A DNA stretch of 64,000 nucleotides from Flavobacterium sp. (GTDB lineage Bacteria; Bacteroidota; Bacteroidia; Flavobacteriales; Flavobacteriaceae). Shown piece by piece: positions 2,561 to 20,910 of this stretch. The notes beneath the pieces are model-generated. The model was not told where the DNA came from. It saw only the letters and a program-made list of their open reading frames with translations, and searched no databases. The translations under genes were made by a program, and so were the position numbers. Position 1 is the first letter of the stretch. Every line of letters begins with the position of its first letter. Location: contig NZ_JAIXRZ010000051.1 in the NCBI RefSeq assembly GCF_027484945.1, positions 1-64,000 of the forward strand. Reading direction: 5' to 3'.

Positions 2561-4483
2561 ATGAATTTTATGAGTACGGTATTCGCGCAACGTATAGCAG
2601 ATTTTTTAAATGCATATGAACCGTTTAATTTTTTGCCTTATGAAGATTTGGTAAAAATTGCTGCAACAGTTCGTGTCTTAACGCTTGAAAAAAACAAATC
2701 GCTTTTTCAAATCAATGATGCATTACATGATTCTTTCTATGTTGTTGCTTCAGGAAGTATTCATTTAATGGTAGTTTCTGATGCCGATGATCTGTTGTTG
2801 AATAAATGCTTCGCCGGAGATATATTTGGATTACGTCCTTTTTTCGCTAAAAACAATTATCAAATGACCGCTAAGGCAAAAGAAGATTGTATTGTTTATG
2901 CGGTTCCAATTGCTACTTTTAAACCGTATGTATCAAAAAATCAGGAGGTTTTAAATTTTTTATTAGAAAGTTTCGCTACCAATTCCAAAAATCAAGCGGA
3001 TAAACAGGCCAAAGGCCTTATTTCTGATACGGTGGCTTTTAATGAAAATCAGTCGGATTTGCTTTATTTTCAAGCATTGTCCTATAATCGTAATCCGTTG
3101 CGTGTTGGCAGTTCTACTAGTATTCGCGATGTTGCACAATTAATGACCGACAATTTATTTGACAACGCCATTGTTACCGACCAAAGTTACCCTATTGGCA
3201 TTGTAACCGATTCCGATTTTCGCGCTAAAATAGCGACTGGTCGAATACCGGCATCTGCAGCTATTGCAACGTTAATGAATGCACCGGTACCAACGGTAAA
3301 TGAAAACATTTCTGTTGCCGAAGCACAATTAGTGATGCTCAAACAGGGAGTTACGCACCTTTGTGTTACTTTGGATGGCACCGATAAATCTGAAGTTAAA
3401 GGGGTTATTTCTGAACACGATTTGGTTGTTGCACAAGCCAATAACCCTGGTGTTTTAGTGAAAGAAATCAAAAAAGCTACTACAGCAAAAGAATTAAAAA
3501 TAGTTCGGAATAAACTTACTGAAATTATTCAATCGTCACTAAATCGAACTATTCCCCTTACCCATATTAGCAGTATTGCGGGCGAAATTACGTTAGCAAT
3601 CGTTAAACGCGCTATCGAATTGGCTATTTTAGAATTGGGTTCCCCCCCAGCCCGTTATGCTTGGTTATGTATTGGAAGTCAAGGTAGAAAAGAACAATTG
3701 CTCGCTTCCGATCAGGATAGTATTCTGATTTTTGAAGACGTACCTGCTGATAAATATCGTGAAACCAAAGATTACTTTATTCGTTTAGCCAAAAAGGTTA
3801 CCCTTACTTTAGAAAACGTTGGTTTTAAATCCTGTCCTAATCAACATATGGCTAGTAATATTCTTTGGTGTAAGTCATTGACAGATTGGGTAAAACAATA
3901 CAATAATTGGATGAATACTCCAGGTGAAAAATCAAATGAAATTAGCAGTATATTTTTTGATTATGAGTTGGCCATTGGAGAGCAAAAAATAGAAGATAGT
4001 ATAACGGAAACCCTTTTTAAAAACACTAAAAACAACGTTCTTTTCTTTGATTATTTAGGCAACGACGCTTTGCACAAACCCCAAGCATTAAATTTCTTTA
4101 AAAAACTGAATACCGAAGAAGACGGGGAACAAAAAGGAAAGTTTGATATCAAAAACCGAGGGATTATGCCTTTAGTTGATGGTGCACGGTTATTTGCTAT
4201 GAGTAATACGGTTAAAGGCATCAATGGAACGTACCAACGGTTTAAACACTTGGCCATTGTTGATCCAAAACATGCTGAAATTTATCTCAATTGTGCTAAT
4301 GCATATATAGAGCTTATTCGTTTCAGAACTATTGAAGGTTTGAAAAATGACACCGACGGACAGTATTTGGATCTCAATGAAATAAATAAAATCGATCGCG
4401 AGAAATTAAAAAACGCATTGGGTCCGATGCGCGAATTAGAAGAACTTATTAAAGACACATTCCAACTTACACAATTTTCCTAA
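2561..4483 (+). CDS. cNMP-binding/CBS/DUF294 putative nucleotidyltransferase
   Basis: This 640-residue protein has four parts. A cyclic-nucleotide-binding-like domain spans about residues 8-145 and a CBS pair about 175-300. The DUF294 nucleotidyltransferase segment contains GSQGRKEQ (about 371-378) followed by a DQD pair, the GS-x(n)-DxD pattern of the GlnD/Pol-beta fold. A helical DUF294 C-terminal domain runs from about 480 to 630. The architecture is that of regulatory proteins proposed to sense nucleotides and modify or signal to a partner; the true substrate is not established. The downstream exonuclease-like gene starts one base after its stop, and acetyl-CoA synthetase is the next gene, convergent. 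In proteobacteria the same domain trio is, from memory, often next to acs/actP, so a role in controlling acetate metabolism is a reasonable inference. A second ATG at 2570 is an alternative start. Confidence 0.8.
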   Translation: MNFMSTVFAQRIADFLNAYEPFNFLPYEDLVKIAATVRVLTLEKNKSLFQINDALHDSFYVVASGSIHLMVVSDADDLLLNKCFAGDIFGLRPFFAKNNYQMTAKAKEDCIVYAVPIATFKPYVSKNQEVLNFLLESFATNSKNQADKQAKGLISDTVAFNENQSDLLYFQALSYNRNPLRVGSSTSIRDVAQLMTDNLFDNAIVTDQSYPIGIVTDSDFRAKIATGRIPASAAIATLMNAPVPTVNENISVAEAQLVMLKQGVTHLCVTLDGTDKSEVKGVISEHDLVVAQANNPGVLVKEIKKATTAKELKIVRNKLTEIIQSSLNRTIPLTHISSIAGEITLAIVKRAIELAILELGSPPARYAWLCIGSQGRKEQLLASDQDSILIFEDVPADKYRETKDYFIRLAKKVTLTLENVGFKSCPNQHMASNILWCKSLTDWVKQYNNWMNTPGEKSNEISSIFFDYELAIGEQKIEDSITETLFKNTKNNVLFFDYLGNDALHKPQALNFFKKLNTEEDGEQKGKFDIKNRGIMPLVDGARLFAMSNTVKGINGTYQRFKHLAIVDPKHAEIYLNCANAYIELIRFRTIEGLKNDTDGQYLDLNEINKIDREKLKNALGPMRELEELIKDTFQLTQFS

Positions 4484-4484
4484 T

Positions 4485-5078
4485 ATGCTGGATTGGCTTA
4501 AAAAAATCAATAGCGATTACCCTGTTTTCTGGAAAGAATACAGTTCGAAATTTGAAAAGAAATCGAACCGTTATGTTGCTTTTTCACTAGAAACGACGGG
4601 GTTAAACCCAAATAAAGATGTAATTCTATCCATTGGAGCCATTGCAATTGCTAATAATCAAATCATTATCGGTGATGCCTTTGAAATTGCTATTCCTCAA
4701 TACAAACATTTGCACGATAACGGAATACAACCTGACTTAATAACGGAAAGTTTGCTGCCAAAGTTGGCTGAACCTGCTGCGATAGAAAAATTTATTCAAT
4801 TTATAGACAATGCGGTTTTAGTGGGACATCGCACCTATTTCGACGTAGAACTTTTAAATGTAGCTTTGGAAAAATTAGGCTGTGGACGTCTTCGAAATGA
4901 AGCGCTGGATATCGAAATCATGTATAAAAAATTACATGATATTTCAGACAAATCTTTAGCATTAGATGACATGGCAACACAATATAAGCTACAAAAGACC
5001 GAGTTAGTTTCAGCAATTGATGATACCTATACCATCGCACTACTCTTTTTAAAACTCAAATCTAAGTTAGGGTTTTAA
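4485..5078 (+). CDS. DnaQ-fold exonuclease-like protein with altered catalytic residues
   Basis: This 197-residue protein has an RNase T/DnaQ fold. The ExoI motif is FSLETTGLN: E36 is kept, but the preceding aspartate position is S34. ExoII (LVGHRTYFD, D120) is intact. In ExoIII the second aspartate is present (D180), but the position of the general-base histidine (HxAxxD) is V175, in VSAIDD. Two of five DEDDh residues are therefore missing, which predicts weak or no exonuclease activity and perhaps a binding or regulatory role. The start is one base after the stop of the DUF294 gene, indicating translational coupling. It is not the replicative epsilon subunit: it is short and linked to the DUF294/acs neighbourhood. 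The fold is secure; activity is doubtful. Confidence 0.75.
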   Translation: MLDWLKKINSDYPVFWKEYSSKFEKKSNRYVAFSLETTGLNPNKDVILSIGAIAIANNQIIIGDAFEIAIPQYKHLHDNGIQPDLITESLLPKLAEPAAIEKFIQFIDNAVLVGHRTYFDVELLNVALEKLGCGRLRNEALDIEIMYKKLHDISDKSLALDDMATQYKLQKTELVSAIDDTYTIALLFLKLKSKLGF

Positions 5079-5154
5079 CCCGCTATTTCATTGGCTAAGC
5101 TACGAATCATTCAAAAAAACAGCCCTTTAATCAATATAGATTATAAGTAGAGGT

Positions 5155-5176
5155 AAACAATATTAATTAATTGTTT
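5155..5176. terminator. Weak AT-rich hairpin between convergent genes
   Basis: AAACAAT and ATTGTTT arms flank an ATTAATTA loop, followed by a short T run on the plus strand. It sits between the convergent exonuclease-like gene and acs. The stem is AT-only, so this is a tentative terminator. Confidence 0.3.
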
Positions 5177-5199
5177 TTCAATATATTAAAATCATAAAA

Positions 5200-7110
5200 C
5201 TATACCAAACGGTTGTTTTTGATTTCTTCTACAATTTCTGGATTCAATAAGGTAGAAATATCACCAAAATTAGTATAATCACCTTCAGCAATCTTCCGGA
5301 GAATTCGCCGCATAATTTTACCTGATCGAGTTTTTGGTAGTCCACTCACAAACTGAATCGTATCCAATTTAGCAATCGGACCGATTTGATCCGAAATTAA
5401 CTGATTAATCTCTTTTGCTAAGTCATCATGATTTCGGCTAACCCCGGTTTCTTTTAAAATAACAAATCCATACAAGGCATTTCCTTTAATATCGTGTGGG
5501 AATCCAACAATTGCACTTTCAGCAATAGCGGGGTGTTCGTTAATTGCATCCTCTATTGGGGCAGTTCCCAAATTATGTCCCGAAACAATAATAATATCAT
5601 CGATACGTCCCGTAATACGATAGTAACCCACTTCATCGCGTAAAGCGCCATCACCTGTAAAATATTTACCTAGGAACATCGTAAAATAAGTATCCTTATA
5701 CCGTTGGTGATCACCCCATATTGTTCGCGCAATACTTGGCCAAGGAAATGTAATACATAAACTTCCTGACACTTGATTACCTTCAATTTCGTTTCGAGAT
5801 TCATCAATTAATGCTGGCTGAATTCCGGGTAGCGGTAATGATGCATACGTCGGCTTTGTAGGAGTTACAAATGGAATCGGCGCGATCATGATCCCTCCTG
5901 TCTCAGTTTGCCACCATGTATCAACCAAAGGACACCGTTTTCCACCGACATGATCATTATACCAATGCCACGCTTCTTCATTTATGGGTTCTCCTACCGA
6001 CCCAATTACTTTTAACGAGGCTAACGAAAACTTTTGTACAAAATCTAAACTTTCTTTGGCCAAAGCGCGAATTGCAGTTGGAGCCGTATAAAATTGATTA
6101 ACGTTATGTTTTTCAATCACTTCCCAGAAACGACTAAAATTTGGATATGAAGGAATTCCTTCAAAAAGTACCGTCGTTGCGCCATTTAACAGAGGTCCGT
6201 ATACACTGTAGGAATGTCCTGTAATCCAGCCGATATCAGCAGTACACCAAAAAACGTCATCCGCTTCATAATTAAACACATTTTTAAACGTGTAGGCCGT
6301 ATAAACCATATACCCAGCTGTAGTATGCAACATTCCTTTGGGTTTTCCTGTTGATCCCGAAGTATATAGAATAAACAAAGGGTCTTCGGCATCCATAATT
6401 TCGGCAACATTGGTGGGGCTAGCTTTATCGACTAACGGCTGCAACCATAAGTCGCGACCTCGTTTCATAACTACAGTCTGATTGGTTCGACGTACCACTA
6501 AAACAGTTTCAACCGTAGGACATTTTTCGAGGGCTTCATCGATAATGGATTTAAGGTTGATGATTTTATCACCGCGATAGCCCCCATCTGAAGTGAGCAC
6601 CATTTTCGCTTCGCAATCTTGTATTCGTACAGCTACAGCAGCCGCTGAAAATCCAGCAAAAACGACCGAATGAATAGCACCGATGCGTGCACAAGCTAAA
6701 ACCGCTACAGCCAATTCGGGAATCATAGGAAGATAAATACAAACCCGGTCACCTTTTTGAATTCCTTGATCACGAAGCACATTGGCCAAACGCGCTACAC
6801 GATGATACAAATCAGTATATGAAATTGTTTCTGATGGCTCATTAGGGTCGTTGGGTTCAAAGAGTATTGCTGGCTTTTCTCCGCGTTCAGCTAAATGGCG
6901 ATCGATGCAATTAGTGGTTATGTTAACTTTTGCATTGACAAACCATTTGAAATCGGCTTCTAGCATATCAAATTCAAGAACTTTATCCCATTTCTGATCC
7001 CACAAAAAATTTTTATCGGCAATTTTACTCCAAAACTTTCGGGGATTCCGAATGGATTTCTTATACATTTTGAAATAATGTTCCAGATTTTTTATGCGAT
7101 AATCTCCCAT
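5200..7110 (-). CDS. acs: Acetyl-CoA synthetase (AMP-forming)
   Basis: This 636-residue cytosolic ANL enzyme converts acetate, ATP and CoA to acetyl-CoA, AMP and PPi. An Acs-type N-terminal cap precedes the adenylation core, with P-loop YTSGSTGKPKG at about residue 251 and TWWQTETGG at about 400. The hinge region is GRIDDIIIVSGHNLG, and the C-terminal lobe carries LPKTRSGKIMRR at about residue 590. Its lysine is the adenylation lysine that is acetylated in enterobacterial Acs. Length is that expected for Acs and clearly longer than the propionate or aryl-CoA ligases in this window. It is convergent with the DUF294/DnaQ-like pair, which may regulate acetate use. A 63-codon open frame ends six bases upstream of its start. 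Confidence 0.95.
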   Translation of the reverse strand: MGDYRIKNLEHYFKMYKKSIRNPRKFWSKIADKNFLWDQKWDKVLEFDMLEADFKWFVNAKVNITTNCIDRHLAERGEKPAILFEPNDPNEPSETISYTDLYHRVARLANVLRDQGIQKGDRVCIYLPMIPELAVAVLACARIGAIHSVVFAGFSAAAVAVRIQDCEAKMVLTSDGGYRGDKIINLKSIIDEALEKCPTVETVLVVRRTNQTVVMKRGRDLWLQPLVDKASPTNVAEIMDAEDPLFILYTSGSTGKPKGMLHTTAGYMVYTAYTFKNVFNYEADDVFWCTADIGWITGHSYSVYGPLLNGATTVLFEGIPSYPNFSRFWEVIEKHNVNQFYTAPTAIRALAKESLDFVQKFSLASLKVIGSVGEPINEEAWHWYNDHVGGKRCPLVDTWWQTETGGIMIAPIPFVTPTKPTYASLPLPGIQPALIDESRNEIEGNQVSGSLCITFPWPSIARTIWGDHQRYKDTYFTMFLGKYFTGDGALRDEVGYYRITGRIDDIIIVSGHNLGTAPIEDAINEHPAIAESAIVGFPHDIKGNALYGFVILKETGVSRNHDDLAKEINQLISDQIGPIAKLDTIQFVSGLPKTRSGKIMRRILRKIAEGDYTNFGDISTLLNPEIVEEIKNNRLV

Positions 7111-7459: not shown

Positions 7460-8071
7460 ATGATGCAATTTGATCCTGAAACCCTGGAACAATCCGCAAT
7501 TTACAAGTTGTTAACCGGCACTATTATCCCCCGCCCTATTGGATGGATATCAACAATTGATACCAACGGAGTTAATAATCTAGCTCCTTTTTCGTATTTT
7601 AACTTGTTGGGGGATGACCCTCCGCATGTGGTATTTTCAACACGACGTGATAACCATACCAATAAAGACACTTTAAACAATGTATTGACAACACAACAAT
7701 TCGTGGTGAATATGGTAACCGAATCGGTAGTCGAACAAATGAATGCTACATCGGATAAATTACCACCCGAAATTGATGAGTTTTTGCATGCAGGCGTTAC
7801 ACCCATTTCCTCGGTTAAAGTAAAACCAATGCGAGTTCAAGAAAGTCCAATTCATTTGGAATGCGAACTTGCTCACCATTATTTTTTAGAAGGACATCAA
7901 CAGGGAGGAGCTTGCGTAATCATTGGACGGATTGTGATGATGCATTATGCAGATGAAGTACTTCTCGATAATTATAAAATCAATTTGGAAACCTATAAAC
8001 CGGTAGCACGTTTAGGTGGTGCTAATTACTCTAAATTGGGCGAATTATTTACTATTAAACGCAATACTTAA
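7460..8071 (+). CDS. Flavin reductase-like FMN-binding protein (flavoredoxin/DIM6 family)
   Basis: This protein of about 203 residues has the split-barrel flavin reductase-like domain. It opens with FDPETLEQSAIYKLL, then GTIIPRPIGWISTID and LAPFSYFNLLGDDPP, which contact FMN in this family, followed by STRRDNHTNKDTLNN. Such proteins bind FMN and often supply reduced flavin or act on small aromatics. It is the first gene of the aromatic cluster, and the monooxygenase gene starts two bases after its stop. In-frame ATGs also occur at 7415, 7448 and 7463; I prefer 7460/7463 because family members begin just before this FDP segment. It may be an electron donor or an accessory flavoprotein for the neighbouring oxygenase; this is inferred from context. 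Confidence 0.8.
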   Translation: MMQFDPETLEQSAIYKLLTGTIIPRPIGWISTIDTNGVNNLAPFSYFNLLGDDPPHVVFSTRRDNHTNKDTLNNVLTTQQFVVNMVTESVVEQMNATSDKLPPEIDEFLHAGVTPISSVKVKPMRVQESPIHLECELAHHYFLEGHQQGGACVIIGRIVMMHYADEVLLDNYKINLETYKPVARLGGANYSKLGELFTIKRNT

Positions 8072-8072
8072 G

Positions 8073-10364
8073 ATGAAAATTACTGTAATTGGTGGTGGTC
8101 CGGGCGGACTCTATTTTTCGATACTTACAAAAAAAGCAATGCCCAACTGTGAAATCGATATCTATGAACGGAACCGACCCGATGATAGTTTCGGTTTTGG
8201 CGTTGTTTTCTCTGATGAAACGTTGGGTGAGTTTTTGAAACGCGATATGGAGTCGTATGAGCTAATACGAACAAACTTTGCATATTGGGATGATATCATC
8301 ATCGCGCGCGACGGCCAAGAAGTGCGTATCGCAGGAAATGGTTTTTGTGGGTGTTCGCGAAAAACACTTTTAAAACTTCTACACCAACGTTGCCAAGAGG
8401 AAGGAATTCGGTTGCATTTTGAACAAAATGTAGACGATTTAAGTCAATTTTCCGATTCAGATATACTAGTGGCTTCTGATGGAATTGGCAGTGCTATTCG
8501 AACCCAATTTAATGAAGTTTTTGGGACAAAAGTCGAACTAAAAAGCAATCGTTTTGTGTGGTTAGGTTCGACCAAACCACTCGATGCTTTCACGTATTTT
8601 TTCCGCTCTACGCCCTATGGAACTATAGTGGCACATTCCTACCAATATGAACCTGGAATGAGTACTTGGATATTTGAATGCACCCATTCGACATGGGAAA
8701 AAATAGGATTTGAAATCACCAATGAGGCCGATACAATTGCAAAAATTGAATCGCTTTTCAAAGAAGAATTAGAAGGTCACAAATTAATTTCAAATAAGTC
8801 GCATTGGCGGCAATTTCCCCATGTAACCAATGAAAATTGGTATCACAAAAACATCGTGTTGCTTGGAGATGCCAAAGCGACAGCCCACTACTCTATTGGA
8901 TCTGGAACAAAACTGGCCATGGATTGTGCTATTGCCCTCTCAGATGCTGTAATAGCCAACCCCACCAATATTCAAGCCGCTTTTAAGCAATATGAACAAA
9001 CGCGTCGAAATACGGTAGAAATGATTCAATATGCCGCAACGGTTTCATTGGATTGGTTTGAACAAATGGACCGTCATATGCAACACCCTTTTTATCAATT
9101 TGCCTTCGGGTGTATGACGCGTTCTAAAAAAGTAACGTTTGAAAACCTGTTCATTCGTGATCAATCGTTTACCCATAAAGTATTAGCAGAATACAATCAC
9201 AATTCAACTACAGGAGCAATTCCGGCTGCTTTTAGTCCATTCAAATTACATGATCTTGAATTGATTAATCGAATTGTGATGGCTCCCATGGGACAATACC
9301 GAGCTAATCAAGGGGAAGTTAACGATTGGCATTTTCAACATTATACTTCGCGTGCCATTGGAGGTGTGGGGTTAATTCTTACTGAAATGACCGCCATTTC
9401 TGATACGGGTCGTATTACTCCAGATTGTGCTGGGATTTACACCGAAAATCAAATCACAAATTGGAAGCGAATTACCGATTTTATTCATCAAAATACCGCT
9501 ACAAAAATAGGAATTCAACTGGGCCATTCGGGACCAAAAGGAGCCACAAAACGACCAAGCCTGGGTTCCAACGAACCTATAGAAAACCCATGGGAATTGG
9601 TTGCGGCTTCTGCGATTGCATTTTCTGAAAAAATGCCGACCCCAAGAGCACTTTCTGTGACTGATATGGCGACCATAACCCATCAATTTATTCAAGCGAC
9701 CAAAAATGCAACTTTAGCTGGATTTGATTTAATTGAACTTCAAGCGCATCACGGATTTTTACTGGCTTCATTTCTATCGCCTTTAACCAATACCCGTACA
9801 GACGAATTTGGTGGAAGTATTGAAAATCGTTTAAAGTTTCCTTTACAAGTTTTTAAAGCCATGCGCGCCGAATTCCCAAAGGATAAACCCATGTCAGTTC
9901 GTATTTCAGCATGCGATTGGGCTGAAGGCGGAATTTCAGAAGCCGATGTTGTTTTTATTGCCAATGCCTTTAAATTAGCTGGAGTTGATGTCATCAATGT
10001 TTCGACAGGTAATACCGTTGCTTATCAGAAACCTGTAGTGGGTCGAATGTGGCAAACTCCTTTTTCAGATGTTATTCGCAACACCGTTCATATTCCAACA
10101 ATCACCGCCGGTTCTATTCAAAATATTGATCAAATCAATACAATTTTGTTGAATGGGCGTGCTGATTTAGTAGCCTTAGGACGTCCCCTTTTATTGGATC
10201 CGTATTTTGTTCGCAATGCGCAAGCTTATGAAAATTACCGACCAGCAGATATTCCAGAGACCTATTTTGCAGGCACCTCACATTTGTATCCCTTTCAAAC
10301 AACTGAGCGAAAACAGTTAGAAAACATGAAACGCGCTTTGAAACCAAAGAGTAATAAAAAATAA
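8073..10364 (+). CDS. Bifunctional aryl-CoA monooxygenase/Old Yellow Enzyme fusion (salicylyl-CoA 5-hydroxylase or 2-aminobenzoyl-CoA monooxygenase/reductase type)
   Basis: This 763-residue fusion has two parts. Residues 1 to about 370 form a class A FAD monooxygenase: the Rossmann GGGPGG is at residues 7-12 and the second FAD motif LLGDAKATAHYSIGSGTK is near 263. From about 383 to 745 is an NADH:flavin oxidoreductase barrel, seen in NRIVMAPMGQY, IQLGHSGPKG, LQAHHGFLLASFLSP, GGSIENR and ALGRPLLLDP. The same architecture is known from 2-aminobenzoyl-CoA monooxygenase/reductase and from bifunctional salicylyl-CoA 5-hydroxylase/oxidoreductase. Both hydroxylate a CoA-bound ortho-substituted benzoate at C5. 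The CoA ligase next door and the downstream gentisate-type dioxygenase support a C5-hydroxylated product. The ATG at 8073 begins exactly at the Rossmann strand; a longer frame from 8016 would overlap the previous gene. Substrate (salicylyl- versus anthraniloyl-CoA) cannot be decided from sequence. Confidence 0.88.
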   Translation: MKITVIGGGPGGLYFSILTKKAMPNCEIDIYERNRPDDSFGFGVVFSDETLGEFLKRDMESYELIRTNFAYWDDIIIARDGQEVRIAGNGFCGCSRKTLLKLLHQRCQEEGIRLHFEQNVDDLSQFSDSDILVASDGIGSAIRTQFNEVFGTKVELKSNRFVWLGSTKPLDAFTYFFRSTPYGTIVAHSYQYEPGMSTWIFECTHSTWEKIGFEITNEADTIAKIESLFKEELEGHKLISNKSHWRQFPHVTNENWYHKNIVLLGDAKATAHYSIGSGTKLAMDCAIALSDAVIANPTNIQAAFKQYEQTRRNTVEMIQYAATVSLDWFEQMDRHMQHPFYQFAFGCMTRSKKVTFENLFIRDQSFTHKVLAEYNHNSTTGAIPAAFSPFKLHDLELINRIVMAPMGQYRANQGEVNDWHFQHYTSRAIGGVGLILTEMTAISDTGRITPDCAGIYTENQITNWKRITDFIHQNTATKIGIQLGHSGPKGATKRPSLGSNEPIENPWELVAASAIAFSEKMPTPRALSVTDMATITHQFIQATKNATLAGFDLIELQAHHGFLLASFLSPLTNTRTDEFGGSIENRLKFPLQVFKAMRAEFPKDKPMSVRISACDWAEGGISEADVVFIANAFKLAGVDVINVSTGNTVAYQKPVVGRMWQTPFSDVIRNTVHIPTITAGSIQNIDQINTILLNGRADLVALGRPLLLDPYFVRNAQAYENYRPADIPETYFAGTSHLYPFQTTERKQLENMKRALKPKSNKK

Positions 10365-10376
10365 TATACTACTATC

Positions 10377-11975
10377 ATGAAACAGTACATTGATTCGTTT
10401 GCTCATGATTATTTGCCCAAAATTGAGGCTCAGCCGGGGTATTCATTTTTAGATTTACCCCAATTTCAACAACCTGAAATATGCAATTGTGTGGATCGTT
10501 TATTGGACCACCATATTCGCGAAGGACGCGGCCAAAACTTGTGTCTACAAACTTTTGAATCGCGTTGGACATACCAAGACCTATATGAAAAAAGCAATCA
10601 AATTGCGCAAGTTTTGGTTAACGACTTTGGACTCCAATCAGGCAATCGCGTGTTAATTCGATCAGCCAACAACCCCATGATGGTTGCTTGTTGGTTTGCC
10701 ATCTTAAAAGCCGGTGGAATTGTTGTGGCTACTATGCCACTCTTGCGCTCCAAGGAACTCACTACCCTAGTTTCATGTGCCGAAATTACGCATGCCTTGT
10801 GCGCAGCTGATTTAGAAGACGATATGCATTTAGTTACGTCTGATCATCTTCAATCGGTATGTTATTTTGGAAATGGACAATTGGAAACGTTAATGGCTCA
10901 ATACCAACCCGTTTTTGAAAATTACCACGCACATGCTGAAAGTGTTGCTTTGATAGGATTTACTTCGGGCACGACAGGTTTACCTAAAATGACGGCACAC
11001 TTTCATAAAGATATCCTCACTATTTGTGAAGCATTTCCCTCCTACTCGCTTCAACCAACACCGGAAGATCTATTTGTTGGCAGTCCGCCCATTGGTTTTA
11101 CCTTTGGTTTGGGAGGGTTAGTTTTATTTCCTTTATATTACGGTGCATCAACTTTTCTTATTGAAAAACCTAGTCCTGATTTGCTTTTACAAGCGATACA
11201 AGATTTTAAAATCACAATCTGTTTTACTGCACCAACGGCTTGGCGGGTAATTACAGGAAAAGTAAAAGCCTACGACATTTCAAGCCTTCGCAAATGTGTA
11301 TCGGCTGGAGAAACACTCCCTTTAAATGTATGGCAAGATTGGTATGAGGCTACCGGACTAAAAATTATTGACGGAATCGGTGCAACAGAAATGCTGCATA
11401 TTTTTATTTCTTCAAACGAATCTAATATGAAACCCGGAGCTACGGGATTACCAATTACAGGATACGAAGCTAAAATTATCGATGAAGAAGGAAATGAAAT
11501 TACGGATGGATCTTCGGGTCGATTAGCGGTTCGTGGAATAACCGGTTGCAAATACTTGAATCGTCCCGAAAAACAGTTAGAATATGTTCAATACGGCTGG
11601 AATATTACCGGTGATCTTTTCAGAAAGGATGAAGAAGGGTATTATTGGTTTGTTGCACGCGGAGATGATATGATTATTTCATCCGGATACAATATTGCAG
11701 CAATTGAAGTAGAAAGTGTATTGCTCACCAATGAAGCGATAGCCGAATGTGCGGTAGTTGGACTTCCTGATGAAGAACGCGGGATGTTGGTTTGTGCCTA
11801 TATTGTAGTAAAAGAATCATTTAAAGCTTCTGATGCGTTAAAACTAACTATCCAACAGTGGTTCAAAGAAGTAGCTGCACCATACAAGTACCCTAGAGTC
11901 ATTCATTTTGTAGCCTCCTTACCTAAAACTGAAACCGGAAAAATTCAACGATTCAAACTTAAAAGCAGCGAATAA
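10377..11975 (+). CDS. Aryl-CoA ligase (2-aminobenzoate/benzoate-CoA ligase family)
   Basis: This 532-residue ANL-superfamily ligase has GFTSGTTGLPK at about residues 194-204 as the ATP-binding loop and IDGIGATEMLHIF at about 330. The hinge is TGDLFRKDEEGYYWFVARGDDMIISSG (split here: TGDLF, then RGDDMIISSG), and the catalytic lysine is in SLPKTETGKIQR near the end. The N-terminal region, with DHHIREGRGQNLCL and YEKSNQIAQVL, resembles benzoate and 2-aminobenzoate CoA ligases rather than fatty acyl ligases. It should activate the aromatic acid to its CoA thioester using ATP, in the cytosol. It sits 12 nt after the CoA-ester monooxygenase, so the two steps are clearly linked. Exact acid specificity is unresolved. 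Confidence 0.85.
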   Translation: MKQYIDSFAHDYLPKIEAQPGYSFLDLPQFQQPEICNCVDRLLDHHIREGRGQNLCLQTFESRWTYQDLYEKSNQIAQVLVNDFGLQSGNRVLIRSANNPMMVACWFAILKAGGIVVATMPLLRSKELTTLVSCAEITHALCAADLEDDMHLVTSDHLQSVCYFGNGQLETLMAQYQPVFENYHAHAESVALIGFTSGTTGLPKMTAHFHKDILTICEAFPSYSLQPTPEDLFVGSPPIGFTFGLGGLVLFPLYYGASTFLIEKPSPDLLLQAIQDFKITICFTAPTAWRVITGKVKAYDISSLRKCVSAGETLPLNVWQDWYEATGLKIIDGIGATEMLHIFISSNESNMKPGATGLPITGYEAKIIDEEGNEITDGSSGRLAVRGITGCKYLNRPEKQLEYVQYGWNITGDLFRKDEEGYYWFVARGDDMIISSGYNIAAIEVESVLLTNEAIAECAVVGLPDEERGMLVCAYIVVKESFKASDALKLTIQQWFKEVAAPYKYPRVIHFVASLPKTETGKIQRFKLKSSE

Positions 11976-11977
11976 TG

Positions 11978-11985
11978 TATATTTG
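11978..11985 (+). promoter_or_regulatory. Possible internal -7 element inside the aromatic cluster
   Basis: TATATTTG matches TAnnTTTG just after the ligase stop, 98 nt before the thioesterase ATG. No convincing -33 partner is visible. If real, the second half of the cluster could be transcribed separately. Confidence 0.2.
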
Positions 11986-12083
11986 AATGGTTTATTTTTT
12001 CATAGACAATATTAAATTTAAACCAATCGTACCCTTTCACTTTCATGCAATACAAAGCAGGTTAGTTTTTAAATAAAACAAGT

Positions 12084-12503
12084 ATGAATTATTTTACAAA
12101 AGAAGAGAAAATTCGTTTTCAACATATCGACTATGCAGGAATTGTATTCTATCCTCGGTTTCTCGAAATGCTCAATGCCTTGGTCGAAGATTGGTTTGAA
12201 GAAGCGCTTGAACGTCCGTTCCAACAGATGCACGAAACGCATGGTATTCCAACGGTTGACTTAAAAATTCAATTTAAAAATCCAGCACGATTAGGTGAAA
12301 CGCTAATCAAGCATTTATGGGTGAAAGAGCTCCGAAATTCTTCAATTCTTTGTGGATTTCGATTTGAAAATGCGCAACAAAAAACGGTCTTAGAAGGCGA
12401 AGTTACCCTAGTTAACGTGAAAATCGCGGAAGACCGCCATAGTATTAGTTCGGAAGCTTTTAACGAAACAATGAAGTCAAAAATTGAACTCTATTTACTG
12501 TAA
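12084..12503 (+). CDS. 4HBT-type acyl-CoA thioesterase
   Basis: This 139-residue hot-dog-fold protein carries IRFQHIDYAGIVFYPRFLEML near the N-terminus. The D-x-AGIVFYP signature is that of Pseudomonas-type 4-hydroxybenzoyl-CoA thioesterase, in which this aspartate is the catalytic residue. It should hydrolyse an aryl-CoA in the cytosol. In the cluster it fits release of the hydroxylated free acid (gentisate or 5-hydroxyanthranilate) after the CoA-dependent hydroxylation, before ring cleavage. Length matches the family. Gaps of 108 bp upstream and 45 bp downstream separate it from its neighbours; the latter contains ATCAGTAG (12527-12534), echoed before two later genes. Substrate is inferred from context. 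Confidence 0.82.
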   Translation: MNYFTKEEKIRFQHIDYAGIVFYPRFLEMLNALVEDWFEEALERPFQQMHETHGIPTVDLKIQFKNPARLGETLIKHLWVKELRNSSILCGFRFENAQQKTVLEGEVTLVNVKIAEDRHSISSEAFNETMKSKIELYLL

Positions 12504-12548
12504 ATTCGTCCGATTTTACAAATTTAATCAGTAGCATTATTTAGCATT

Positions 12549-13523
12549 ATGGAATTTAAAAAGTTTAAAGCCGCAACAGTTCAAACGGCACCTGTATATC
12601 TCAAAGTTTCGGCAACAGTCGACAAAGCGGTAAATTGTATTAAAGAAGCACATCAAAATGGTGCAACACTTATTGCATTTCCTGAAGTATTTATAGCCGG
12701 TTACCCCTATTGGAACTGGATTATGACACCCGTTCAAGGCAGCACATGGTATGAAAAATTATACCGTAATGCAGTAGCCATTGACGATCCCGAAATGCAA
12801 CCGTTGTACCAAGCCGCCCGAGAGTTTAATATGCATATTGTTATTGGTATTAATGAACGTGGATTGAGTTATGGAGAAATTTACAATACCAATTTAATCA
12901 TTGATAATCAAGGAACAGTTATTGGACGTCATCGTAAGCTGGTACCAACATGGGCAGAAAAATTAACGTGGAGTTCTGGTGACGGTTCAACCTTAAAAGT
13001 TTATGACACTGCTGTAGGCCCACTTGGCACTTTGGCCTGTGGTGAAAACACCAATACGTTAGCCCGTTTTACGTTACTGTCACAAGGAGAATTAGTCCAT
13101 ATTGCCAATTACATTTCCCTTCCTGTTGCTCCTCCCGATTATGATATGGCCGAGGCAATTAAAATTCGGGCTGCAGCACATTCGTTTGAAGGAAAACTTT
13201 TCACTATCGTTTCTTGTTCAACCATATCGCAAGAAATCAAAGATGCCCTTCGGGGCGATGTTCCCAATATAGATGCACTATTGGATCGTAAAAGCTCGGC
13301 TTTTTCCGGATTTATTGGTCCAAATGGAGCAGTAATCGGTACTCCATTAATCGATGAGGAAGGTATTGTCTATGCGGATATTGATTTATCTAAATGCATA
13401 CAACCGAAACAAATGCACGATATTTTAGGGCATTACAACCGTTTTGATATTTTTGATTTACGGGTAAATATTGCCCCAACGCGTAAAATTACATTTGTAG
13501 AAAATAACGAAAAGGAAACATAA
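12549..13523 (+). CDS. Nitrilase-superfamily carbon-nitrogen hydrolase
   Basis: This 324-residue protein has the full Glu-Lys-Cys triad: E46 in FPEVFIAGYPYW, K130 in RHRKLVPTW and C164 in ACGENTNTLAR. The C-G-E-N-T-N context differs from the CWEH of classical nitrilases and cyanide dihydratases, and resembles a less characterised nitrilase-like group. It hydrolyses a C-N bond, in either a nitrile or an amide. In an otherwise complete CoA/gentisate-type cluster it stands out. One inference is that it hydrolyses the amide left when an ortho-amino ring is cleaved (maleamylpyruvate or maleamate to the acid plus ammonia). The alternative is that it makes the aromatic acid from an aryl nitrile upstream of the ligase. 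No signal peptide is seen. Family is firm, substrate open. Confidence 0.85.
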   Translation: MEFKKFKAATVQTAPVYLKVSATVDKAVNCIKEAHQNGATLIAFPEVFIAGYPYWNWIMTPVQGSTWYEKLYRNAVAIDDPEMQPLYQAAREFNMHIVIGINERGLSYGEIYNTNLIIDNQGTVIGRHRKLVPTWAEKLTWSSGDGSTLKVYDTAVGPLGTLACGENTNTLARFTLLSQGELVHIANYISLPVAPPDYDMAEAIKIRAAAHSFEGKLFTIVSCSTISQEIKDALRGDVPNIDALLDRKSSAFSGFIGPNGAVIGTPLIDEEGIVYADIDLSKCIQPKQMHDILGHYNRFDIFDLRVNIAPTRKITFVENNEKET

Positions 13524-13568
13524 AAGAGTACAACTAATTAGATAACTAACAGATTAGTAGTTAATAAA

Positions 13569-14690
13569 ATGGAAGATACCAATTATTCAGATGATGTATA
13601 CGGACGGGCGCGCGTTAGTGACACCCCCGAACTCGAAGCCTATTATAAAGATCTCGAAGCTTTAGGTGCCGGTGCCTTATGGACCGTTGCTAATGATATC
13701 GAACCCTGGGAACCGCGTTCCAATTCGGTTCCGATGCTTTGGAAATATGAAGACTTACGCGCGCTTGTTCTCAAATCGAGTGAATTGGTTACTCCAGAGC
13801 AAGCCGGTCGACGTGTAGTTTATTTGGTTAATGAAAAGCGCAAAGACGTTTCTGCAGCTGTTGGTTGGCTCTATACAGGGATTCAAGTAACACGCCCAGG
13901 AGAATCGACTTCGGCGCACCGCCATCGTGCATCTGCTCTACGTTTTATTATGGAAGGCAGTAAAGGATATACCGTAGTTGATGGTAATAAAATTATGTTG
14001 GAGGTAAATGATTTTGTTATTACTCCCAATTCAACTTGGCATGAGCATGGTGTAGAAGCTGATGGCCAAACATGTATTTGGCAAGATGGTTTAGACATTC
14101 CTTTAGTGAATGCTTTGGAAGCTAATGATTATGCGGTTTTTGATGGGAAACAACCTGTAGATGTTCCGTTAAATTATTCACCGAAAACCTATAGTGGTGT
14201 CGGACTCATTCCAGCTGATGTACAATGGGACAAACCCTATTCTCCCCTATTTAAATACTCATGGAGTAATGTATATCCTGCTTTGTTAGAGGCATTAGAC
14301 GTGAATCCAATCGATCCCTTTGATGGCATTCATATGCGTTACAGTAATCCCTTGACGGGTGGCCATGTTATGCAAACGATGAGTGCCGCTATGCAATTGT
14401 TGCCAAAAGGATATAAAGGAAAAGCTCATAAACATACTGGTTCTTTTGTTTACCAATGTGCCAAAGGAACTGGCTACTCAATAATTAACGGTAAACGTTA
14501 CGACTGGAAAGAACGGGATATCTTCTGCGTCCCATCATGGGCTTGGCACGAACATCACAACGCTTCCGACACTGAGGATGCATGCTTATTTCATTTTAAT
14601 GATTTACCTGTGATAGAGGGACTAGGATTATATCAAGACCGAATATATACAGAAAACAACGGCAACCAACCTCTGAATTTCTCAATTTAA
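13569..14690 (+). CDS. Gentisate 1,2-dioxygenase-like bicupin ring-cleavage enzyme
   Basis: This 373-residue bicupin shows strong gentisate 1,2-dioxygenase character. The N-terminal segment has LEALGAGALWTVANDIEPWEP. The first cupin has SAHRHRASALRFIMEG (metal histidines at about 116 and 118) and NSTWHEHG (about 160). The second cupin has KAHKHTGSFVYQ and WAWHEHHN. The family uses Fe(II) and O2 to open gentisate between C1 and C2, giving maleylpyruvate. Homologues also act on 5-substituted salicylates and on 5-hydroxyanthranilate-type substrates, so the true substrate may be an amino analogue. It lies between the nitrilase-family gene and the aspartyl-protease-like gene. AGATTAGTAG (13551-13560) precedes its start by 8 nt. 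Confidence 0.9.
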   Translation: MEDTNYSDDVYGRARVSDTPELEAYYKDLEALGAGALWTVANDIEPWEPRSNSVPMLWKYEDLRALVLKSSELVTPEQAGRRVVYLVNEKRKDVSAAVGWLYTGIQVTRPGESTSAHRHRASALRFIMEGSKGYTVVDGNKIMLEVNDFVITPNSTWHEHGVEADGQTCIWQDGLDIPLVNALEANDYAVFDGKQPVDVPLNYSPKTYSGVGLIPADVQWDKPYSPLFKYSWSNVYPALLEALDVNPIDPFDGIHMRYSNPLTGGHVMQTMSAAMQLLPKGYKGKAHKHTGSFVYQCAKGTGYSIINGKRYDWKERDIFCVPSWAWHEHHNASDTEDACLFHFNDLPVIEGLGLYQDRIYTENNGNQPLNFSI

Positions 14691-14704
14691 GGAAGTATAC
14701 AAAA

Positions 14705-15886
14705 ATGAAAAAAAGGGTACTGATTGCGTTACTTTTTTTAAGTGTTAAACTAATTTTCGCACAAGATTTCAAATTAGACGCTGGAAAAATTGTTCAACGC
14801 GAATATTTAGAAGTAATTGATTTTGAATTACTTCACGGAAAAATAATTATTCCCGTAATCATTGAGGGTCAATCCTATCGCTTTCTATTAGATACGGGGG
14901 CTCCAAATATTATTTCAAAACGACTCGCAACTGTTTTTAATTCTTCGAAAAAAAAGGAACTTGATGTAGTCGATGTAAATAATTTAAATGAAAAAATGGA
15001 TATCGTACCGATTCCCAGTATTCATCTTGGTTCGTTGCGATTTGAAAATGGCGTTGCTATTGTCGTTGATTTGGATAATCACCCTATTTTACAATGTTTT
15101 AAATTGGATGGTTTTATTGGAAGTAATTTCTTTAAAGATGCAGTGCTACAAGTTGATTTTCCAGCAAAAAAAATACGTATTGCGCATACCATTAAATCGC
15201 TTTCTCCAATATCAAAAAGCGGTTCGTTGCAATTAATTGGGAAGCAAATGGCTCCATTTATCCAAGTTAAACACGAAAATGAAAAAGGAGACAAAGGAAG
15301 TGAGTTTGCACTTTTAGATACCGGAATGGAAGGTTTATATGATTTATCGGATCGAATTTATACTGAATTTCAAAAAGATGCTATTATTAAAACGGTAGCA
15401 GAATCGAAGGGTGTGACTGAATTGGGCCTTTTCGCGAAGACAGAGCCAACACCTTACCGTTACGTGGCTATCAATCAAATGCAAATAAACAATACGAAAT
15501 TCAAAGGACTTCAGGTGCTAACTACTGCTGATGCCAATTCAAGAGTTGGATTGGAACTTTTTCAATATGGAAAAATCACATTAGATTTTCATAAAAAGAA
15601 ATGGTATTATGAAGCCCCCACTGAAATTAATTTTACACAAAGTCTCCCACCCATCACACCTACCATTATTGATAATAAATTAGTAGTGGGAGTTATTTGG
15701 GATACCCAGTATAACAACCAATTGCAATTTGGAAATCCAATCACTAGAATCGATGAATACCGTATGGAAAACCTATCGGTTTGTGAAATTTTAGCGATAA
15801 AAAACCAAATCAAAATGAGAACTCATTATGAAATAGAAATTAAAAATAATGCCGGAGAAACGGTCCTAATAAAAATGAAAAAATAA
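14705..15886 (+). CDS. Secreted retropepsin-like aspartyl protease with PDZ-like C-terminus
   Basis: This 393-residue protein starts with a signal peptide (KKRVLIALLFLSVKLIFAQ, cleavage near residue 20). It has two aspartyl-protease motifs, FLLDTGAPNIIS at about residue 60 and FALLDTGMEGLY at about 200, so a single chain provides both catalytic aspartates. The last 75 residues contain FGNPITRIDEYRMENLSVCEIL, which looks like a PDZ-type segment, as in other Bacteroidetes aspartyl-protease-fold proteins. It should act in the periplasm or outside the cell. Its place is odd: it lies 14 nt after the ring-cleavage dioxygenase, and its stop codon overlaps the start of the FAA hydrolase by one base (TAATG), so it is co-translated with catabolic enzymes. 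Its role in the pathway is unknown. Confidence 0.78.
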   Translation: MKKRVLIALLFLSVKLIFAQDFKLDAGKIVQREYLEVIDFELLHGKIIIPVIIEGQSYRFLLDTGAPNIISKRLATVFNSSKKKELDVVDVNNLNEKMDIVPIPSIHLGSLRFENGVAIVVDLDNHPILQCFKLDGFIGSNFFKDAVLQVDFPAKKIRIAHTIKSLSPISKSGSLQLIGKQMAPFIQVKHENEKGDKGSEFALLDTGMEGLYDLSDRIYTEFQKDAIIKTVAESKGVTELGLFAKTEPTPYRYVAINQMQINNTKFKGLQVLTTADANSRVGLELFQYGKITLDFHKKKWYYEAPTEINFTQSLPPITPTIIDNKLVVGVIWDTQYNNQLQFGNPITRIDEYRMENLSVCEILAIKNQIKMRTHYEIEIKNNAGETVLIKMKK

Positions 15887-16794
15887 TGAAACTAGTTACC
15901 TACATTGAACAAAATCATGAACCCCGTTTGGGATTTTTATGGCAAGAATTCATTATCGACATGGAAGATTTTGGAGCAATTGTTAATTTTCCGTTACCGA
16001 ATGATATGTTGGATCTTATCGATATGGGCATAGAAGTCATTGCTGAAATAAACGACTTAATTGCAGAAACTCCTGAGGAATATATCGCCAAAATTGGTGT
16101 ACCCTTTGCAAGTGTGACACTTATGGCTCCCATTCCTAGACCTCGAAAAAATATTATTGGCATTGGACTCAATTATACCGAGCATGTAGCCGAGAGTGCC
16201 CGTACATTGGATACCACAGGTAAACTTCCTCAAAAACCAATTATTTTCTCTAAACCACCAACCACAGTTACCGCAACCAATACTGCTGTGATTAAAAACA
16301 CTAAACTTACTGCGCAATTGGATTGGGAAGTTGAATTAGCTGTGGTAATTGGAAAAAAAGGAAAGTATGTCCCCAAAACAGAAGCTATGGATTATGTATT
16401 TGGCTATACAGTTATCAACGATATTTCGGCGCGTGATTGCCGACGGGAAGGACAATGGATTGTTTCGAAAGGGCAAGACACCTTTGCACCTATGGGTCCT
16501 TATTTGGTTACTAAGGACGAAATTGAAAATCCACATAACTTGAATTTGAGTTTGAAAGTAAATGGAGTCGAAAAACAAAACTCAAACACCCAATACCTCT
16601 TATTTACAATCGACGATTTGATAGAAGATTTAAGTATTGTTTTTACACTTGAACCGGGAGATATCATAGCAACTGGTACACCCGCAGGTGTGGGTGCAGG
16701 TCGAAATCCGCAAGAGTGGTTACATGATGGTGATGTGGTTGAAGCTACTGTGGAAGGAATCGGAACGATTATTAATACAATAAAAGAAATTTAA
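15886..16794 (+). CDS. Fumarylacetoacetate hydrolase-family acylpyruvate hydrolase (likely maleylpyruvate hydrolase)
   Basis: This 302-residue protein has the FAH C-terminal domain. IGIGLNYTEHVAES begins it, LDWEVELAVVIGKKG supplies the acidic metal ligands, GYTVINDISARDCR follows, and TGTPAGVGAGR closes the active site. The family cleaves C-C bonds of acylpyruvates. After a gentisate-type dioxygenase, and with maleate isomerase but no glutathione-dependent maleylpyruvate isomerase in the cluster, direct hydrolysis of maleylpyruvate (or its amide) to maleate (maleamate) plus pyruvate is the best fit. The first base of its ATG is the last base of the preceding stop. Fumarylpyruvate hydrolase is the main alternative. 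Confidence 0.87.
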   Translation: MKLVTYIEQNHEPRLGFLWQEFIIDMEDFGAIVNFPLPNDMLDLIDMGIEVIAEINDLIAETPEEYIAKIGVPFASVTLMAPIPRPRKNIIGIGLNYTEHVAESARTLDTTGKLPQKPIIFSKPPTTVTATNTAVIKNTKLTAQLDWEVELAVVIGKKGKYVPKTEAMDYVFGYTVINDISARDCRREGQWIVSKGQDTFAPMGPYLVTKDEIENPHNLNLSLKVNGVEKQNSNTQYLLFTIDDLIEDLSIVFTLEPGDIIATGTPAGVGAGRNPQEWLHDGDVVEATVEGIGTIINTIKEI

Positions 16795-16868
16795 TAAGCG
16801 AATAGTACACAGAGATTAGTAGACTATATACGGTTTTAAAGAATGGTTTTCAGTAATATAATAAAATT

Positions 16869-17621
16869 ATGAGTAGAAAATATAGAATTGGGCAGATTGT
16901 TCCGTCATCAAATGTGACGATGGAGACCGAAATCCCTGCGATTTTTAGAGCAAGAGAATCCTTGTTGTCCGAACGTTTTTCATTTCATAGCAGTCGAATG
17001 CGAATGAAAAAAGTCACTCAAGAAGAATTAGCCGCAATGGATGCGATGAGCTTGAAGTGCGCTACGGAATTGTCAGACGCTCATGTGGATGTAATGGGCT
17101 ATGCTTGTCTAGTAGCCATTATGAGCATGGGGCGTGGTTATCATTGTGTATCTGAAGTAAACTTGCACCAAGAAACTATAGCAAATGGCTTCCCTACACC
17201 TATTGTGACTTCAGCAGGTGCATTAATTAATGGTTTACGTGTATTGGGCGCACAACAAATCTCGATTATCACACCTTATATGCGTCCTTTAACCGACAAA
17301 GTAGTCGACTATATAGAGCATCAAGGTATAAAAGTTAAGCAAAGTATTGCGTTAGAAATTCCAGACAACTTAGAAGTAGCTGCTCAAAATCCTTTGAATT
17401 TGCTCGAAATCTACAAACAATTGGATTTAACCGATGTGGATGTTTTGGTAGTTTCGGCATGTGTTCAAATGCCTTCACTAGAAGCTATTGATTTAATTCA
17501 AGCGGAGTGTGGAATTCCTGTAACTTCTGCAGCGGTATGTACCACTTACGAAATGATGAAAAAACTAGGAATCGAAGCGCGATCTTCAATTGGTGGTGAA
17601 TTGTTAAGCGGGAAGTACTAA
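16869..17621 (+). CDS. Maleate cis-trans isomerase (Asp/Glu racemase superfamily)
   Basis: This 250-residue protein has the maleate isomerase pattern. PSSNVTMETEIP lies at residues 12-23, the first catalytic cysteine is C80 in MGYACLVAIMSMG, and the second is C198 in VVSACVQMPSLEAI. Characterised maleate isomerases have cysteines near 76 and 194 and a similar length. The enzyme converts maleate to fumarate without cofactor, feeding the TCA cycle. Its presence as last gene of the cluster strongly suggests that the preceding hydrolase releases maleate (or that an amidase yields it), rather than fumarate directly. The gap upstream (16795-16868) contains AGATTAGTAG (16813-16822). A strong hairpin terminator follows 11 nt after the stop. 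Aspartate racemase or arylmalonate decarboxylase are less likely given both cysteines and the context. Confidence 0.88.
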   Translation: MSRKYRIGQIVPSSNVTMETEIPAIFRARESLLSERFSFHSSRMRMKKVTQEELAAMDAMSLKCATELSDAHVDVMGYACLVAIMSMGRGYHCVSEVNLHQETIANGFPTPIVTSAGALINGLRVLGAQQISIITPYMRPLTDKVVDYIEHQGIKVKQSIALEIPDNLEVAAQNPLNLLEIYKQLDLTDVDVLVVSACVQMPSLEAIDLIQAECGIPVTSAAVCTTYEMMKKLGIEARSSIGGELLSGKY

Positions 17622-17632
17622 TAATAAAAACA

Positions 17633-17660
17633 AAAAAGCCTGAATTACTTCAGGCTTTTT
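17633..17660. terminator. Bidirectional rho-independent terminator
   Basis: Arms AAAAAGCCTGAA and TTCAGGCTTTTT flank a TTAC loop. A/T runs on both sides allow it to end both the aromatic cluster (+) and the convergent M13 peptidase gene (-). Confidence 0.9.
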
Positions 17661-17663
17661 CCG

Positions 17664-20754: not shown

Positions 20755-20910
20755 GCGAAAATGAAATTAAATTTGTTAATTTATCAATTGACAAAAAATA
20801 GGATTATTTACTTTTTTATAAAGAAAATAGAAAAAAATAATACTGTAAGAAATACTAAAAGGATTCACAAATTCGTTAAACAAATAGTAACTTGCAGCAA
20901 ATTTGCATCT

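Follow-up and report, generated by a model that had tools for sequence, protein, structure and literature searches.

A CoA-dependent route for anthranilate ring cleavage predicted from a nine-gene cluster of Flavobacterium

Which aromatic acid is degraded by a gene cluster that joins a CoA-dependent hydroxylase to a gentisate-type dioxygenase and a nitrilase-superfamily protein? The question is raised by a stretch of 64,000 nucleotides (nt) from Flavobacterium sp. (assembly GCF_027484945.1, contig NZ_JAIXRZ010000051.1, positions 1 to 64,000 of the forward strand), called the window below, which belongs to a 2.28-Mb draft genome that is 89.6% complete. Nine closely packed genes lie on its + strand at 7460–17621, and we consider it probable that they encode a CoA-dependent pathway that cleaves the ring of anthranilate and ends in pyruvate, ammonia and fumarate, with substrates and products inferred from sequence kinship and gene context. 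A preliminary description of this DNA had counted ten same-strand genes with very short gaps. Strand and spacing stand (gaps of 1, 12, 108, 45, 45, 14, −1 and 74 nt, in order) but the open reading frame (ORF) listing of the window gives nine genes, with no ORF of at least 90 aa in the 108-nt gap. In the order of the cluster, the features are:

7460..8071, + strand: flavin reductase-like protein (PF01613, 86.2 bits against a cut-off of 27; the ORF possibly starts at 7415)
8073..10364, + strand: fusion of an FAD CoA-ester monooxygenase and an Old Yellow Enzyme (OYE), predicted anthraniloyl-CoA 5-hydroxylase with A441, Q557 and N647 (NF006101, 959.5 bits; PF00724, 230.6 bits)
10377..11975, + strand: AMP-forming aryl-CoA ligase, predicted anthranilate-CoA ligase (best solved relative 4wv3, 287.3 bits)
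12084..12503, + strand: 4HBT-family thioesterase, predicted to free 5-hydroxyanthranilate from its CoA ester (PF13279, 39.6 bits; PF03061, 32.4 bits)
12549..13523, + strand: nitrilase-superfamily C-N hydrolase, predicted amidase acting on the ring-cleavage product or on maleamate (PF00795, 143.7 bits; E46-K130-C164, motif CGEN)
13569..14690, + strand: bicupin gentisate-type 1,2-dioxygenase, predicted 5-hydroxyanthranilate 1,2-dioxygenase (61% identity to PDB entry 3BU7 over 362 aa)
14705..15886, + strand: aspartyl-protease-like protein (PF13650, 41.4 bits; GC fraction 0.333, the lowest among the nine genes)
15886..16794, + strand: FAA-family hydrolase, predicted to split the product of ring fission into pyruvate plus maleamate or maleate (PF01557, 232.1 bits)
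16869..17621, + strand: maleate cis-trans isomerase with Cys80 and Cys198 (309.9 bits to PDB entry 4fq7, residues 5–250)
17632..17661, no strand assigned: terminator-like stem with T-runs on both sides, which separates the cluster from a convergent gene

Profile and PDB matches confirm the enzyme families named in the preliminary description (ligase, monooxygenase/OYE fusion, 4HBT thioesterase, nitrilase, dioxygenase, FAA hydrolase and maleate isomerase). Anthranilate is a product of tryptophan and plant-auxin decay. In the pathway that we propose, the ligase would convert anthranilate, CoA and ATP to anthraniloyl-CoA, and the FAD half of the hydroxylase, for which the flavin reductase may supply reduced flavin, would add a 5-hydroxyl group to give 5-hydroxyanthraniloyl-CoA. 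The thioesterase would free 5-hydroxyanthranilate from CoA and the dioxygenase would cut the ring between C1 and C2, so that a carboxamide would form from C2 and the amino group on it. Nitrilase and FAA hydrolase, in either order, would convert this amide to pyruvate, ammonia and maleate, and fumarate would arise from maleate through the isomerase. The preliminary description had left the choice between anthranilate and salicylate half open; the kinship of the ligase, the partnership of nitrilase and dioxygenase, the iad-like and isatin context of related loci and a three-position switch in the hydroxylase all argue for anthranilate.

The hydroxylase carries the last of these signals. Its residues 1–350 match VioD and residues 375–737 match OYE chains, by sequence and by fold search alike. 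This fusion architecture is that of 2-aminobenzoyl-CoA monooxygenase/reductase (the abm pathway), so the enzyme could still make a reduced CoA ester that is passed to β-oxidation enzymes encoded elsewhere, next to an unrelated gentisate operon. In R. pomeroyi, P. denitrificans and Leisingera hydroxylases of this family do cluster with enoyl-CoA hydratase, in the first two (L099, L100) together with acyl-CoA dehydrogenase and away from the ring-cleaving dioxygenase gene, but neither enzyme is encoded among the nine window genes. On the R. pomeroyi megaplasmid (L099, L004) the hydroxylase cluster with acyl-CoA dehydrogenase lies by a tryptophan 2,3-dioxygenase gene, and a nitrilase-dioxygenase module lies elsewhere.

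A first set of 44 aligned hydroxylases comprised 22 encoded beside the ring-cleaving dioxygenase (that of the window included) and 22 that are not. Three columns of the 763 residues of the window protein, all within the OYE half, split the two groups without overlap: position 441 is A beside the dioxygenase and C elsewhere, position 557 is Q versus H, and position 647 is N, Y, L, E or G versus Q. A fourth column flagged by the script consists mostly of gaps at the C-terminal end. Position 557 lies within the motif ELHAAHGY, which becomes ELQA.HG, and is presumably equivalent to the catalytic His of YqjM-type OYEs. In a structure model of the window protein (mean predicted local distance difference test score, pLDDT, 76; 13 sequences) residue 441 ends a strand, and residues 557 and 647 follow strands; residue 647 falls in a stretch with pLDDT < 50, and the model was used for strand positions, not for distances.

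A second set was fetched after the first and holds 27 copies from 16 of the 17 dioxygenase-bearing genomes in a Burkholderiaceae-type family sample (17 of 299 genomes; a class-wide sample around Paraburkholderia was too thin, with the centre itself the one bearer among 274 genomes). All 13 copies within 5 kb of the dioxygenase read A-Q-E and all 14 elsewhere read C-H-Q, without exception, and both kinds occur together in ten genomes. The 13 linked copies form one lineage, two of them with zero branch length to known rows (L006, L091); to judge by the tree, the second set raises the number of copies more than that of independent events. Taken together, all 35 rows linked to the dioxygenase carry the switch and the 37 others do not, and only these same three columns separate the two groups. 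In a tree computed with the switch columns left out (60 rows after thinning of close relatives) at least four independent switches fall on well-supported branches, in Bacteroidota, Burkholderiales, Novosphingobium and one gammaproteobacterial draft, the last on a long branch that makes its placement less sure. One of the unlinked C-H-Q copies is that of Arthrobacter Rue61a pAL1; for the ligase encoded next to it, passages of PMC3534580 report activation of anthranilate.

The simplest reading of these alignments is that ring-reducing residues were lost at each pairing of the hydroxylase with a ring-cleaving dioxygenase. This suggests that the OYE reductase half is disabled and the product kept aromatic, since the ring-cleaving enzyme would need the aromatic 5-hydroxy product, not the reduced one. 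With C, H and Q kept in every unlinked row and changed in every linked one, and with ten genomes that hold both types, continued ring reduction by the window hydroxylase appears very unlikely.

The dioxygenase and the ligase bear on a second alternative, in which salicylyl-CoA would be hydroxylated to gentisyl-CoA, gentisate released and cleaved to maleylpyruvate, and this split into pyruvate and maleate, the precursor of fumarate; the nitrilase would then serve something else. The best named models speak for it, as they are NF006101 (salicylyl-CoA 5-hydroxylase) for the hydroxylase and TIGR02272 (gentisate 1,2-dioxygenase) for the dioxygenase. However, both window proteins score under the model cut-offs (959.5 against 1078 bits and 295.1 against 442.1 bits, respectively). 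The NF006101 cut-off is exceeded by two Burkholderiales hydroxylases encoded beside the dioxygenase (1359 bits in L006, 1333 in L091), not by that of L039; L091, though, sits with isatin hydrolase and oxidoreductase genes, so the model name does not settle the substrate. Among solved proteins the window ligase comes closest to an anthranilate-CoA ligase (4wv3), and benzoate-CoA ligases reach at most 222.4 bits.

Canonical GtdA is distant from the window dioxygenase. Among the best 40 of 55 plasmid matches, those annotated gtdA are 36.5–39.2% identical to it, and 16 that belong to its own subfamily are 56.7–63.9% identical. The solved member of the subfamily, 3BU7, is reportedly active on gentisate. 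Its 362-residue stretch is contained with zero mismatches in the R. pomeroyi gene SPO_RS20405, which is flanked by nitrilase and FAA / Asp-Glu racemase genes, the racemase being a relative of maleate isomerase. His119, His121 and His160 of 3BU7 are described as Fe ligands, and Gln108/Asp175 as the dyad that deprotonates the 5-hydroxyl of gentisate (passages of PMC4019311); all five are conserved in the window dioxygenase by alignment (numbering offset 8). Ring cleavage of unhydroxylated anthranilate was set aside as a candidate, because the dyad for the 5-hydroxyl is kept and the maleate isomerase implies a maleate product. Both Cys80 and Cys198 of that isomerase align with Cys residues of 4fq7, and by sequence it is a clear member of the maleate cis-trans isomerases.

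The conservation of the gene set was assessed in a locus scan of genome contigs that started from the window protein, 3BU7 and four relatives, and from which the best 80 of 275 confirmed relatives were kept. Presence of a gene near the dioxygenase was scored at identity thresholds. An FAA hydrolase gene stands beside the dioxygenase in 75 of the 80 loci, a nitrilase gene in 61, a maleate isomerase gene in 33, and hydroxylase and ligase together in 17. All 17 ligase-plus-hydroxylase loci also have nitrilase, thioesterase and isomerase, and 15 have the flavin reductase. The preliminary description had proposed a search for the same set and order in other Bacteroidetes, and it succeeds: the eight window genes other than the aspartyl-protease-like one recur in the same order and on one strand in 15 Flavobacterium-type loci, in some of them with extra genes interspersed. 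Cultured species with the cluster include F. saliperosum (L055) and F. cauense (L045). The preliminary description was not aware of an account of this order in Flavobacteria; the cluster is no peculiarity of this genome, since among 199 genomes of the genus 86 carry the dioxygenase. At E 1e-30 it is found in three of 119 genomes of the order, all three of the same genus and one being the source genome.

Two side observations concern these loci. Ten Flavobacterium-type loci, L045 among them, encode a 527-aa protein with a glutamate-synthase core domain only (PF01645; L045:6734-8317; domain checked for L045, the others assigned by clustering), which stands between ligase and thioesterase in L038, L045, L048, L053 and others and is absent from the window cluster; it is perhaps tied to the released ammonia. 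L043, from a record titled as a Bifidobacterium breve metagenome-assembled genome, holds a complete Flavobacterium-type cluster, and its contig or title is probably mis-assigned.

Within the genus the nitrilase tracks the dioxygenase closely. Across the 199 genomes, 86 have the dioxygenase, 88 the nitrilase and 85 both; the dioxygenase stands alone in one genome and the nitrilase in three, and all four of these are drafts no more than 85% complete. In 81 of the 85 pairs the two genes share a contig, 80 of them at a distance of at most 3 kb, and in the other four they lie on separate contigs. The nitrilase thus seems to be a near-fixed partner of the dioxygenase, which favours anthranilate over salicylate and upholds the earlier proposal that it acts on an amide formed by ring cleavage. 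The partnership recurs in a different guise elsewhere. Dioxygenase and FAA hydrolase share the locus in Aminobacter (L007) and Tistrella (L008) with a nitrilase that has just 32% identity to that of the window; it adjoins them in L007 and lies about 5 kb off in L008. Two Novosphingobium loci (L089, L097) encode nitrilases of this second subfamily that are 71–72% identical to the L007 protein. A nitrilase of one subfamily or the other is present in 12 of 14 dioxygenase-bearing plasmid loci. Given this distinct second subfamily, the kinship of the ligase and the sub-threshold model scores, we regard salicylate as an unlikely substrate.

The neighbourhood of the dioxygenase subfamily favours a reading in which it points to ANTHRANILATE. 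We take the solved Rieske proteins 7yls and 9o71 to be IadDE; 'iad-like' is used here for genes named from published gene content and solved relatives, not from comparison with verified iad proteins. At least one iad-like or indolepyruvate-oxidoreductase gene is present in 43 of the 80 scan loci, and at least two iad-like genes in 39; many of the 43 come from Bradyrhizobium, so these counts are not independent. In three Rhodobacteraceae drafts (L016, L017, L020) the dioxygenase and FAA genes run straight into an iad-like set of reductase, Rieske α and β subunits, AMP ligase, thiolase and isatin hydrolase. Family checks of L016 gave 540 bits to 7yls for the Rieske subunit and 341 bits to isatin hydrolase 5nna for the cyclase, together with a ring-hydroxylating β subunit, a reductase, an AMP ligase and a thiolase. 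A block of nitrilase, dioxygenase, FAA hydrolase and isomerase has an indolepyruvate-type oxidoreductase and a thioesterase as neighbours in R. pomeroyi, Sulfitobacter THAF37, Sagittula and Shinella (plasmid 2), and one locus of Caballeronia SBC1 combines isatin hydrolase, oxidoreductase, thioesterase, hydroxylase, dioxygenase, FAA hydrolase, nitrilase and isomerase. Anthranilate is favoured because the proteobacterial relatives of the dioxygenase sit in such iad-like and isatin loci, and anthranilate is what iad loci yield according to passages of PMC9613470 and PMC12633357. We infer that the oxidoreductase makes anthraniloyl-CoA from isatinate, and that the Flavobacterium ligase, in its place, starts from free anthranilate.

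None of the iad genes (Rieske IadDE, IadF, IadG, isatin hydrolase) is represented, at family level, among the nine window genes, and none of the searched iad-like genes was found in the 17 ligase-plus-hydroxylase loci. The nitrilase-free loci L016, L017 and L020 carry a class-I glutamine-amidotransferase-like gene by the thioesterase (L016:8574-9284; Pfam-checked for L016 and L020, assigned by clustering for L017), a possible substitute amidase. Together with the second nitrilase subfamily, these genes may be further signs of an amide that needs cleavage, although they are suggestive only.

The nitrilase could also act at the very start, on an aromatic or indolic nitrile, with the remaining genes degrading the resulting acid. 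Its catalytic triad E46, K130 and C164 aligns with that of NitA (6zby), its score against TIGR04048 (Nit6803-type) is 225.1 bits, under the cut-off of 502.6, and among solved proteins it is matched best by nitrilases and cyanide-degrading enzymes; indole-3-acetonitrile would provide a connection to the iad loci. However, the nitrilase gene lies between those of thioesterase and dioxygenase in the window and directly before the dioxygenase in Ruegeria, Sulfitobacter and Sagittula, and the 17 ligase-plus-hydroxylase loci hold none of the searched iad-like genes. A nitrile as first substrate therefore strikes us as improbable, and less likely than salicylate.

Several observations weigh against anthranilate as the substrate. 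The subfamily's solved member, 3BU7, was published as a gentisate enzyme (passages of PMC4019311 and PMC11264262), as the salicylate pathway would have it. In 19 of the 80 scan loci, some of them short, the dioxygenase stands with no nitrilase in the analysed flanks, which would suit salicylate. Sixteen of these loci are at least 15 kb long; 15 genomes drawn from them, with L050 excluded, were searched whole at E 1e-20, and six gave no nitrilase relative and nine only relatives of 34–44% identity. Two plasmid loci, L006 and L092, have no nitrilase of either subfamily, and L006 bears a switched hydroxylase. As for the predicted amidase, its closest PDB relatives are the nitrilases and cyanide-degrading enzymes named above, and branch-1 nitrilases and cyanide-degrading enzymes are, as a class, poor amidases. 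The hydroxylase switch, counted by independent pairs, agrees in four of four, which is not significant (sign test, p 0.125).

The iad-type genomes pose a difficulty of their own. No hydroxylase was found in the analysed flanks of the 43 iad-like or oxidoreductase-type scan loci. A hydroxylase is encoded somewhere in 19 of 20 genomes picked from the scan loci (in one, L053, locally), and the 18 unlinked hydroxylases keep C, H and Q. Neither a hydroxylase in these flanks nor the unlinked copies thus account for how 5-hydroxyanthranilate would arise in iad-type genomes. Nor do tryptophan genes tie the cluster to anthranilate, because they are too common in the genus: tryptophan dioxygenase is present in 185 of the 199 genomes, namely 84 of 86 with and 101 of 113 without the ring-cleaving dioxygenase. 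The 3-hydroxyanthranilate dioxygenase (3-HAO) is found in 172 of the 199, and the kynureninase of the source genome (447 bits) is an enzyme that other routes use too.

We keep to the anthranilate pathway as the probable function of the cluster. A wider proposal, whose truth we hold to be evenly balanced, is that anthranilate has a third, widespread fate: that four or more independent events, each with changes at the three positions, switched off the reductase half of anthraniloyl-CoA monooxygenase/reductase to give a pure 5-hydroxylase that feeds an amide-forming ring-cleavage route ending in fumarate; that the subfamily of 'gentisate dioxygenases' to which 3BU7 belongs would in nature be 5-hydroxyanthranilate 1,2-dioxygenases; and that the module could supply the lower half that iad auxin degradation lacks. 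The CoA-dependent hydroxylation of anthranilate coupled to reduction is already known, as is a gentisate branch via 5-hydroxyanthranilate in Nocardia, described in passages of PMC4539516. Among the matches listed from the open-access literature, with most subscription papers lying outside it, we found no paper that ties genes to ring cleavage of 5-hydroxyanthranilate and no description of a reductase half lost upon pairing of the hydroxylase with a dioxygenase. In the 2025 preprint PMC12633357, the words gentis-, nitrilase and maleate are absent from the main text.

If correct, the proposal would give anthranilate, on which the breakdown of tryptophan, indole and auxin converges, a route that is defined by its genes and releases ammonia, and would offer a testable answer to the fate of anthranilate after auxin degradation by iad bacteria. 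It would correct the automatic names 'salicylyl-CoA 5-hydroxylase' and 'gentisate 1,2-dioxygenase', and the three positions would serve as a sequence marker that tells whether a hydroxylase feeds ring cleavage or reduction.

The remaining features of the window lie outside the proposed pathway. The aspartyl-protease-like gene (14705–15886) is probably a local insertion, since none of 87 other loci, some of them short, encodes a protein that matches its product at more than 60 bits. At the end of the cluster, where a strong terminator had been described, the stem at 17632–17661 is indeed followed by TTTTT on the + strand, but it is shared with the convergent gene and was assigned to the minus strand in the terminator scan. 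Upstream, on the opposite strand, lies an acetate-CoA ligase gene (938 bits against a cut-off of 725), beside CBS/nucleotidyltransferase-like and exonuclease-like genes (named from a reading of the sequence) in window positions 2561–7110. The ORF at 20761–22488 encodes a response regulator with a long C-terminal region, which we assume to be PorX-like (type IX secretion). The named best matches are to Flavobacterium for the dioxygenase and to Myroides, Paenimyroides and Flavobacterium, among others, for the nitrilase.

Among known systems, the aerobic CoA-dependent anthranilate pathway of Azoarcus evansii and Arthrobacter Rue61a comes closest to the upper part of the cluster, with a CoA ligase and a monooxygenase/OYE fusion in common. 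In that pathway, reduction leads to a CoA ester that is no longer aromatic, whereas the window encodes a thioesterase and a ring-cleaving dioxygenase instead, and its reductase half differs at three positions kept in all 37 unlinked rows, Rue61a among them. Passages of PMC3534580 report that 2-aminobenzoyl-CoA monooxygenase/reductase gives 5-hydroxyanthraniloyl-CoA, the product predicted here, when NADH is limiting. The anthranilate route of Nocardia opaca shares with our proposal the intermediate 5-hydroxyanthranilate and a gentisate-type end; however, 5-hydroxyanthranilate is there first converted to gentisate (Cain 1968, as told in PMC4539516), whereas in the window the loss of nitrogen is predicted to follow ring cleavage, by a C-N hydrolase. 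The R. pomeroyi enzyme 3BU7 and the window dioxygenase are 61% identical and have the same Fe ligands and acid-base residues; the former was published on gentisate, whereas the predicted physiological substrate of the latter is 5-hydroxyanthranilate. The iad loci, known from Variovorax and Bradyrhizobium, have counterparts in Bradyrhizobium and roseobacter genomes that join iad-like genes with dioxygenase and FAA hydrolase, often with a nitrilase. The iad work cited above stops at anthranilate, and in Flavobacterium-type clusters a ligase is present but no iad-like gene of those searched. Finally, the lower nicotinate pathway, which proceeds from maleamate to maleate and fumarate, has the maleate isomerase in common with the window cluster. 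Its maleamate amidohydrolase (NicF) is of the isochorismatase fold, whereas the window cluster encodes a nitrilase-superfamily protein.

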